NCBI RefSeq assembly: GCF_036826855.1 | Contig: NZ_CP104578.1 | Location: 496,001-560,000 of the forward strand | Reading direction: 5' to 3' | DNA from: Streptomyces sp. SJL17-4 | GTDB taxonomy: Bacteria; Actinomycetota; Actinomycetes; Streptomycetales; Streptomycetaceae | Length of the DNA: 64,000 nt | In this document: one piece after another, positions 38,759 through 64,000 of the stretch | Layout: every line of letters begins with the position of its first letter | Position numbering within the stretch: position 1 is the stretch's first letter | Program-made: the position numbers and the translations under genes | The notes under the pieces: model-generated | Database searches by the model: none | What the model saw: only the letters and a program-made list of their open reading frames with translations | What the model was told of the DNA's origin: nothing

Positions 38759-38777
38759 TTAGGTTAGGCTAAGTTAA
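38759..38777. promoter_or_regulatory. Iron box (IdeR/DmdR type) upstream of argC
   Basis: TTAGGTTAGGCTAAGTTAA matches the actinobacterial iron-box consensus TTAGGTTAGGCTAACCTAA at 17 of 19 positions. It lies 76 bp upstream of argC. Binding of Fe2+-loaded IdeR/DmdR1 here would repress the arg operon in iron-rich cells. Housekeeping arg genes are normally under ArgR, not iron control. Confidence 0.88.
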
Positions 38778-38852
38778 GTTTCGGTGCGTCGACTTGGGGT
38801 GTGTACCCCCGGTGTGCGCCACGTCCCCATTCATCAGGAGAGACGGAAGAAC

Positions 38853-61100: not shown

Positions 61101-64000
61101 CGGGCGTCGGCTCCGCCGAGGGCCTCGCCGCTGCAGAACACCCGGCGCAAGCTCGCCGCCCAGTCGGGGGCGTCCGGGGTCGACTCCATGGCCTGGACGA
61201 ACGCGGCCAGCATCGACGGTACGAAGTGCGTGGTGGTGATGCCTCGTTCGGCGATGAGACGGGCCAGGTACGCCGGGTCGCGGTGGCCGTCCGGGCGGGC
61301 GAGGACGACGGTCGCGCCCTCGGTCAGCGCCCAGAAGAACTCCCACACCGACACGTCGAAACTGGACGGGGTCTTCTGGAGGACCCGGTCGTCGGCGGTG
61401 AGCCCGTACGCGCCCTGCATCCAGGCGAGCCGGTTGACGATGGCGCGGTGGGTGACGGCGACGCCCTTGGGGCGGCCGGTGGAGCCAGAGGTGTAGATGA
61501 GGTAGGCGGGGTGGTCGGGGCCGGCGGCCCGTACCGGAGTGCCGGGTGCGGTGCTCTCCGGGGCCTCCTCGCCCACGACGACCTGTTCGAGGTCCGCCAC
61601 GGCGGGCAGCCGCCCCGCCGCCTCGGCCGTCGTCACGACGAGCCGCGCGCCCGAGTCGGTGAGCATGAACGCCACCCGGTCGGCGGGGTAGTCGAGATCG
61701 ACGGGCAGATAGGCGGCGCCCGCCTTGAGGACGCCGAGCAGTGCGACCATCAGCTCGGCCGAGCGCGGGACGGCGACGGCCACGTACTCCTCGGGTCCCG
61801 CGCCGCGTTCCCGCAGTCGCCGCGCCAGGGCCTCGGCCCGCCGGTCGAGTTCGGCGTAGCTGAGGGTGGTGTCGTCGAAGACGACGGCCGGGGCGTGCGG
61901 GGTACGGGCCACCCGGTCGGCGAAGAGCGAGGTGAGCGTCGCTTCGGGGACGGGGTGGGCGGTGGCGTTGAGCTCGGTGAGGTGCGCGCGCTCGCGGTCG
62001 GACAGCAGGTCGGTCCGGGCGACGAGCCGGTCGGGCTCGGCGACCACGGTCCGCAGCAGGGCGGTGAACCGGTTGGCGAGGACGGCCACGGCCACCTGGT
62101 CGAGCCGGGCGGCGTGGTGCTTGAACCGCAGCAGCAGGCCTTCGGCGGCGGGCTCGACGACGAGCGCGAGCGGGTAGTGGACGGCGTCGAGCACCTCGGC
62201 GCCGGTGACCAGCGCCTCCCCCGCGTCCTGTCCGTCTCCGCCCGGGTAGTTCTCGAACACCACGAGGGTGTCGAAGAGTTCGCCGCCGCCCGCGATCCGC
62301 TGGATGTCGGCGAGCCCGAGGTGCTGGTGGTCGAGGAGGGCCGCGTGCTCGTCCTGGACGCGGCGGAGCAGCTCGGTCAGCGTCTCCTCGGGGCGGAGGG
62401 TCACCCGGGCGGGGACGGTGTTGATGAAGAGGCCGACGGCGGAGTCCAGGCCCGCGACCTCGGTGGTCCGCCCGGAGACGGTGGTGCCGAAGACGACGTC
62501 CCGGCCGCCGGTGAGCGCGCCGAGCAGCAGCCCCCACACGCCGTGGAAGACGCTGCTCAGGGTGAGGCCGTGGGTCCTGGCGTACGTGGTCAGCGCGTCG
62601 CTGAGGTCGTTCGGCAGGCGGGTGTCGACGTGCTCGGGGCGGGCGGGCGCTTCGGCCGTGTCGTCACCCGGGGTGGTGAGCGCGGGGAGCCGTGTCGGGC
62701 CGTCGAGGCCGGCGAGGGCCTGTCGCCATGCGTCGCGTGCGGTGTCGCGGTCACGGCCGGCGAGCCAGGAGAGGTACGGCTCCGGGGCCACGGGTTCCGG
62801 CAGTGCGGCGCCCCGGTAGGCGTCGGTCAGTTCCCGCAGCAGGACGGCGACCGACCAGCCGTCGGCGACGATGTGGTGGAGGGTCAGGAGGAGCCGGTGG
62901 TGCCGGCCGTCCTTGATGAGGGTGGCGCGCAGGAGCGGGGGGCGGTCGAGGGCGAACCGCTCGGCGCGGTCGGCGCGGAGGATGTCGTCCAGGCCGGTCT
63001 CGGCGGTGTCGGCCTCGCGCCAGGGGAGGGTCACGTGGTCGGCGAGCCGCTGGACGACCTCGCCGCCGGGGAGCTGCCGGAACGAGGCGCGCAGCAGCGG
63101 GTGCCGGTCGAGGAGCAGCTGGAGCGCGCGGCGGAGGCGGTCGGGGTCGACGGTCCCGGCGAGGTCGAGGAGTTCCTGGACGAAGTAGAGGTCGGCGGTC
63201 TGGTGGTCGAACTCGGCGTGGAAGAAGAAACCTTCCTGGAGTGGGGAGACCGGCAGCGCGTCCGGGTCGAGCTCCACCCGCGGCCGGGCCGGGGCGGGGG
63301 CTGTCTCGCCGGCGGTCCGGGCGAGGGCGGCCACGGTCCGACTCCGGAACACGTCGCGCGGGGTGATCGCGAGCCCGGCCTCGCGGGCGCGGTTCACCAG
63401 CTGGATGGCGACGATGCTGTCGCCGCCGAGTTCGAAGAAGCTGTCGTGGACGCCGACGGACGGCAGGCCGAGGACGTCGGCGAACAGTGCGGCGAGCGCG
63501 GTCTCAGCGGGGGTGCTGGGGGTGTCGGTGCCGGTCAGGGAGGTCCAGCGGGGCTCGGGCAGGGCCTTGGCGTCGAGCTTGCCGTTGGGGGTGAGCGGCA
63601 GCGGGCCGTCGAGGACGACGACGGCGGTCGGCACCATGTGCTCGGGCAGGGCGTCGGTCACGCGGGCGCGTGCGGCGGCCACTGCGGAGCCGGAGCCGGG
63701 GTCCGTGCCGGCGACGGTGCCGGCCACGCCGGTCGCGGCTTCGGTGGTCCCGGCCTCGGTGGTCGCGACTTCGGTCTCCGCTTCGGCGGTCCCGGCCTCC
63801 GTCCCCGTGTCGGCCGTCGCGCCCTCCGGGACCAGGTACGCGACCAGCCGCTTCACCCCACGGTGGTCCTCGCGGGCCAGGACGGCGGCCTGGGCGATGC
63901 CCTCGCAGGCCATGAAGGCGCTCTCGATCTCGCCCGGCTCCACGCGGTGGCCGCGGATCTTGATCTGGCCGTCGGCGCGGCCGAGGAACTCCAGGTTGCC
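52133..64000 (-). CDS. Nonribosomal peptide synthetase for a hydroxamate siderophore, 5' end beyond the window
   Basis: More than 3950 residues, open at the right edge inside an A domain ([20 protein letters not shown]). Domain order by position: A end, T (about 63400), C (63260-62000, HHIVADG), A (61970-60470), T (60300), C (59900-58600, HHLILWDG), A (58570-57000), T (56800), C (56650-55310, HHITTDE), A (55300-53770), T (53610), terminal C-like domain (53430-52140, HYLAVDE). Binding-pocket residues read by alignment to GrsA give DVWHFSLVDK (serine, as in EntF) and DMENLGLINK (delta-N-hydroxyornithine, as in CchH). The last A domain reads DVFILGAVNK, which I cannot assign. No epimerase and no thioesterase are seen. 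It is coupled to mbtH. The track start at 63943 is an internal Met. Confidence 0.95.

Follow-up and report, generated by a model that had tools for sequence, protein, structure and literature searches.

The window analysed here, a 64,000-nt stretch of the 8.54-Mb genome of Streptomyces sp. SJL17-4 (NZ_CP104578.1, GCF_036826855.1; forward-strand positions 496,001-560,000), carries a complete argCJBD operon that probably belongs to a hydroxamate siderophore cluster, would be switched by iron and not by arginine, and is probably built around an acetylglutamate kinase that would be insensitive to arginine. The initial annotation had proposed a second, iron-controlled arg set feeding a siderophore; the second set, the iron box and the ornithine-consuming genes were all found, while the iron control itself is predicted from sequence. 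At low iron, a DtxR-family repressor of the DmdR1/IdeR type would leave the box and the four arg enzymes would be made, and these would supply ornithine even when arginine is plentiful. The ornithine would then be hydroxylated, partly formylated and incorporated into the siderophore by a non-ribosomal peptide synthetase (NRPS). As the initial annotation proposed, ornithine would be raised only when the siderophore is needed.

All four genes of the operon (38853-43181, plus strand) score above the curated NCBIfam cut-offs: argC (38853-39893; TIGR01850, 368.6 bits, cut-off 233.6), argJ, which has a GTG start and encodes a bifunctional ornithine acetyltransferase (39890-41041; NF003802, 455.6 bits, cut-off 351), argB, the acetylglutamate kinase gene with the altered arginine site (41038-42006; TIGR00761, 235.9 bits, cut-off 151.3), and argD, encoding acetylornithine transaminase (42003-43181; NF002874, 607.5 bits, cut-off 457). 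The set had been described as complete and coupled by its stops and starts, and indeed each gene shares 4 bp with the next; if the later argB ATG at 41059 is taken as the start, the argJ-argB joint becomes a 17-nt gap instead. The absence of argR, argG and argH from the end of the operon was likewise confirmed, the next gene (43289-44860, minus strand) encoding an amidohydrolase-like protein with weak NCBIfam matches. In comparison with six relatives, dN/dS ranged from 0.13 to 0.31 across the four genes. A search of the genome for another argCJBD(R), suggested with the original description, identified a housekeeping argC-J-B-D-argR operon at ~6.98 Mb, 6.4 Mb away, and the operon in the window is therefore not the only argCJBD in the genome. 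There are two genomic copies of argJ, and the cluster and housekeeping proteins are 70% identical for ArgC (315 aligned residues), 70% for ArgJ, 69% for ArgD and 56% for ArgB.

As had been annotated, a 17/19 match to the iron-box consensus, TTAGGTTAGGCTAAGTTAA, stands 75 bp upstream of argC (38759-38777, plus strand); 100 shuffles gave a mean of 0.00 matches. Scanning the whole 8.54-Mb genome at up to three mismatches returned 23 strand-wise matches, corresponding to 14 sites; the reversed pattern gave 0 matches in the same scan. Three of the sites lie inside the cluster (window coordinates 38759, 48044 and 69318), a fourth, at 73902, is immediately next to it, and none of the consensus matches falls at the housekeeping operon. 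Iron boxes had also been assigned to two nearby units, and here the picture was mixed: a 17/19 box is present at 48044-48062 (plus strand), but it occupies the intergenic region shared by the divergent importer and exporter units, and the exporter's own site (48161-48179, plus strand) is a weaker, iron-box-like 15/19 match that was read by eye. When the genome was searched for DtxR-family repressor genes, a single PF01325 match was strong (72.4 bits) and another was marginal. A sigma-70-type promoter was looked for at argC and none was found.

Across 67 housekeeping loci a tandem operator-like element has been conserved 5′ of argC (median score 35.4, lowest -8.9), and the housekeeping operon of this genome carries it upstream of argC; two adjacent ARG boxes have been described at S. 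coelicolor argC (PMC3293853), and the conserved element is taken here as the putative ARG-box operator. It is absent at the cluster argC, where the score was -14.0 (random windows had a median of -12.2), and the cluster operon thus lacks the tandem ARG-box operator before argC by which we would assign an operon to the ArgR regulon.

The FecCD-type importer, ABC exporter, MbtH and NRPS reported nearby were all recovered, the importer genes scoring below the NCBIfam equivalog cut-offs. The importer comprises a FepC/FecE-like ATPase (44880-45743) and two permeases (45743-46870 and 46870-47979), all on the minus strand, and the two exporter halves (48208-49917 and 49917-51824, the start of the second not being fixed; both PF00664 and PF00005) are on the plus strand. 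They are followed on the minus strand by an MbtH-like protein (51924-52136; PF03621) and by a 4802-aa NRPS with four A domains (52133-66541, of which 52133-64000 is in the window). The genes that make the case for a hydroxamate lie outside the window, to its right: an L-ornithine 5-monooxygenase (67842-69164; PF13434, 335.2 bits) and a formyltransferase (69479-70426; PF00551, 111.9 bits), with the iron box at 69318 between them and a siderophore-binding protein gene (66676-67680) to their left. The monooxygenase gene is ~25 kb from argD, in one run of genes with the formyltransferase and the NRPS. The A-domain codes were read by hand against the GrsA positions: A2 (DVWHFSLVD) is Ser-like and A3 (DMENLGLIN) of the ornithine/hydroxyornithine type, and A1 (DVWILVAVN) and A4 (DVFILVAVN) have a shared code. 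The genes looked for in a hydroxamate cluster, namely an ornithine N-hydroxylase, a formyltransferase and an NRPS with an ornithine-type code (here that of A3), are therefore all present. Farther to the right, in the stretch 73902-88703, a binding protein is encoded again along with a further FecCD pair, with the iron box at 73902, and two large genes code for 1442 and 1629 aa.

We found the cluster-type ArgB, at a match of at least 67% identity, in 80 of 392 Streptomyces genomes, this one included; among the matches listed, an identity gap separates it from housekeeping copies at ~60%. The 79 other loci above the gap were studied as stretches of up to 20 kb, and matches below it (for example G323, 65%) were left out. 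In a class-wide search of 296 genomes, of which the best 20 loci were read, matches of at least 75% came from four genomes only, all of them Streptomyces. Within these stretches, MbtH was present in 47 of the 79 related loci, an enterochelin-esterase-like gene in 40 and the amidohydrolase-like family of 43289-44860 in 36, and 17 loci had an ornithine monooxygenase gene; NRPS, importer and exporter genes likewise recur. Since the esterase-like gene is found in 82 of the 392 genomes but near a cluster-type argB in 40 loci, about half of the esterase-bearing clusters seem to lack the kinase, an estimate that comes from the overall totals.

Iron boxes recur at these related loci. At least 63 of the 79 relatives carry a box at one of their arg-operon genes, compared with 0 of 67 housekeeping argC genes (within 600 bp), and over whole loci we counted 199 boxes in 1.47 Mb for the relatives against 0 in 1.39 Mb for the housekeeping loci. 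The rule for a box at an arg gene, by which 16 of the 79 are negative, misses some: part of the negatives are cut by contig ends, and L176 and L178 have a box before argC. Among the seven closest relatives, the same 19-mer as in the window precedes argC in six (L116, L117 and L119-L122), the stretch from the seventh, L118, ending within argC. Because siderophore loci are rich in boxes, genes were also compared within loci: boxes were found at 25/79 argB, 14/33 argC, 1/32 argJ and 0/31 argD genes and at 25/27 genes for an isochorismatase-like leader, while genes outside those five families had a box in the same interval in 208 of 962 cases. In the relatives the boxes thus mark the start of the arg units. 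The operator-like element had a median score of -8.8 in 63 relatives, two of which score ~10. The isochorismatase-like leader, a 218-residue hydrolase (L137:7382-8038 and relatives), heads the arg unit in many relatives and was not seen in the operon of the window.

In pathways that recycle the acetyl group, N-acetylglutamate kinase (NAGK) is described as the rate-limiting step and as inhibited by arginine (PMC10464499), and in arginine-inhibited NAGKs an N-terminal extension links the dimers, with arginine sitting between the helix of this extension and the C-lobe (PMC3329491). In the Xanthomonas NAGS-K, inhibition of the kinase by arginine is abolished by the E280A substitution and reduced by G286P and G288S (PMC2566978). 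By spacing, these residues correspond to E289, G295 and G297 of the housekeeping ArgB of this genome. The arginine-site Glu is kept by 70 of 71 housekeeping ArgBs, and both the Glu and the Gly are retained by all 16 housekeeping-type loci from the class-wide search, of which 15 come from other genera. It has been lost, together with the N-helix motif, in 66 of the 79 relatives; over all 79, the position is occupied by G in 54, E in 12, S in 8, A in 2, C in 1 and R in 1, with one unread. The cluster ArgB of the window has G at the E289 position and N at the G295 position; the G297 position is unchanged in every relative read. The helix motif, ALPW, is kept in exactly the 12 of the 79 relatives that keep the Glu and is absent from the cluster ArgB. 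Eleven of these 12 lie beside an ornithine monooxygenase gene; for the remaining one, L189, the contig is 3.5 kb long.

The structure model of the cluster ArgB had no helix before residue 32 (pLDDT 43-54 in blocks 1-30), and that of the housekeeping ArgB had helices at residues 20-27 and 29-34 at modest confidence (N-terminal blocks 44, 46 and 62), both models being built from shallow alignments of 36 and 21 rows, respectively. The N-terminal starts were set by a composition rule, and the absence of the helix is a weaker statement than the absence of the Glu. The cluster ArgB nevertheless scores over the cut-off of the acetylglutamate kinase family, and ten positions that we take, after E. coli NAGK, to be catalytic or substrate-binding are unchanged except where one or two rows have a gap. 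Between the window copy and six relatives, argB had a dN/dS of 0.13-0.21. By these measures kinase function is kept in the cluster ArgB, and with its altered arginine site the enzyme would be free of arginine inhibition.

No arg gene other than argB is present in 42 of the 79 related loci, and because the cassette is reduced to argB alone in so many of them, the kinase looks like its key part. Among these 42 loci the box stands at argB in 25 and at the gene just before it in 12, and six argB-only pairs gave dN/dS values of 0.11-0.22. The housekeeping ArgC, ArgJ and ArgD would presumably supply the other steps at argB-only loci. A gene for an NAGS-like GNAT acetyltransferase lies beside argB in 50 of the 79 loci (for example L166:11623-12141), and has its own iron box in 26 of the 50; the four PDB entries that match it best are amino-acid acetyltransferases or acetylglutamate synthases, and its scores are under the NCBIfam cut-offs. 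The best and sole match in this genome is 32% identical and 4.3 Mb away, and the NAGS-like GNAT is therefore not part of this cluster. In L145, near 9169 (argB orientation), an argC fragment of 60% identity was seen upstream of the lone argB and is apparently left over from an operon that has been pruned.

A tree of the ArgB proteins was built with the trait columns removed, the truncated sequence of L194 dropped, and a housekeeping set comprising a random draw of 22 of the 70 other ArgBs plus this genome's own. All 69 ArgBs without the Glu formed one branch (support 100/95, the bootstrap not having settled), which corresponds to one state change on the scored rows; L050 and L068 had no state in this count, and the single loss holds for the siderophore group only. 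The 12 Glu-keeping relatives did not form one group (two changes), and thus a single recruitment into siderophore loci cannot be read from the tree. Between the argB-only and multi-gene forms of the cassette, the tree required seven state changes. Reading these observations jointly, we find it fairly likely that Streptomyces siderophore clusters in roughly one species in five share a recruited group of kinases in which control by arginine gave way to control by iron at two levels, with the operator replaced by an iron box and the arginine site lost once within the group. On this joint reading, the cassettes have shifted repeatedly between several genes and argB alone, often beside the NAGS-like acetyltransferase, and what the clusters would need is their own copy of the arginine-controlled steps rather than the whole pathway.

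A simpler account would be that the operon is a plain second copy, controlled by iron and providing more enzyme, in which the changes in ArgB are immaterial, either with arginine inhibition acting via other residues or because a paralogue that is never exposed to high arginine has drifted. Since 12 of the 79 relatives keep the Glu and ALPW in such loci, desensitisation is not needed for the arrangement, and it also fits this account that the position of Xanthomonas G288 is unchanged and that G286P left partial inhibition (PMC2566978). We nonetheless consider it unlikely: E280A alone ended the inhibition of the Xanthomonas kinase (PMC2566978), the Glu and the helix motif have been lost together while the catalytic sites and the low dN/dS hold, and in the 42 loci left with a single arg gene this gene is argB.

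Two further accounts concern the link to the siderophore and the box itself. The operon, whether iron-controlled or not, could be only a neighbour of the siderophore genes, making ornithine for another product, such as one of the NRPS-size genes to the right, or serving a general arginine supply under iron stress. This we regard as very improbable, even though the ornithine monooxygenase gene is ~25 kb from argD and further transport and large genes follow to the right, because the relatives repeat the link with MbtH (47/79), exporters, importers and NRPS and have an ornithine monooxygenase within the fetched 20 kb in 17 of the 79 loci, and because one type of box marks the arg, transport and hydroxylase units alike. 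A box that arose by chance and is functionless at argC is the least probable of these accounts and can almost be discounted; it is a single predicted site, but the boxes at 63 of 79 relatives against 0 of 67 housekeeping argC genes, the empty 1.39 Mb of housekeeping loci and the identical 19-mer in six of the seven closest relatives all argue against coincidence.

The coupling of a full primary pathway to iron in one cluster had been called unusual in the initial annotation, a view that has to be corrected, as cluster ornithine sets have been published and relatives of the cluster ArgB occur in 80 of the 392 Streptomyces genomes. The qinichelin (qch) cluster of Streptomyces sp. MBT76, the subject of work by Gubbens et al. 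in 2017, reportedly contains an ornithine-precursor operon that is independent of primary metabolism. Like the cluster described here, it combines a siderophore NRPS with glutamate-to-ornithine genes of its own, and it differs in its product, a catecholate-hydroxamate. According to PMC9866976, all four arg enzymes are encoded within the lunaemycin and stenothricin NRPS clusters, and qinichelin is said to be alike; the arg set is in an NRPS cluster as here, but the products of these two clusters are antibiotics and not siderophores, and the ornithine of lunaemycin is converted to piperazate (PMC9866976).

Coelichelin shares with the present cluster the hydroxylation and formylation of ornithine, an NRPS and iron control, there via DmdR1/DmdR2 (PMC9854754). 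Its NRPS has three modules, in contrast to the four A domains with a Ser code found here, and the esterase of coelichelin-like loci has no match in this genome. Coelichelin-like codes, which we take to specify formyl-hydroxyornithine, Thr and hydroxyornithine, were found in L155 and L168, both of which carry argB alone. Griseobactin, an arginine-containing catecholate, was considered from the esterase-like gene as the product of the argB-only loci, and was dropped because of these codes, read from two of the 40 esterase-bearing loci. Foroxymithine is composed of Ser and ornithine derivatives and is formylated, a composition that fits the A-domain codes and the formyltransferase of this cluster. 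The present cluster may possibly be the foroxymithine cluster. S. venezuelae makes foroxymithine and an NRPS cluster has been tentatively assigned to it (PMC9769785), a cluster likewise treated in PMC11005364.

In corynebacteria, a feedback-resistant NAGK has been obtained by mutation (PMC10464499), which involves the same enzyme and the same desired effect, an ornithine flux free of arginine control, whereas the insensitivity here would apparently be natural and stands under an iron box. In a literature search of open-licence papers we found no cluster ArgB described as iron-controlled or as arginine-insensitive. Ornithine gene sets carried by a siderophore or NRPS cluster are known in kind, and the novel part here is the altered, widely shared and often solitary cluster ArgB under iron boxes. 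If the preferred reading of an arginine-insensitive, iron-switched kinase is true, a primary pathway has been moved naturally from end-product control to iron control, at the level of both gene and enzyme and across the genus. It would make testable which step limits the supply of ornithine to hydroxamate siderophores, and would point to natural arginine-insensitive kinases of the kind that strain engineers otherwise make through mutation.

Separate arg genes were also seen beside ornithine-hydroxylase-like genes in L050, L068, L071 and L072. In the ArgBs of these loci the arginine-site Glu is replaced by Q in L050 and by P in L068, and is retained in L071 and L072. In L071 a piperazate-synthase-type gene (PF04299) adjoins the arg genes, and a piperazate cluster was one of the possibilities weighed for the first ArgJ relatives.
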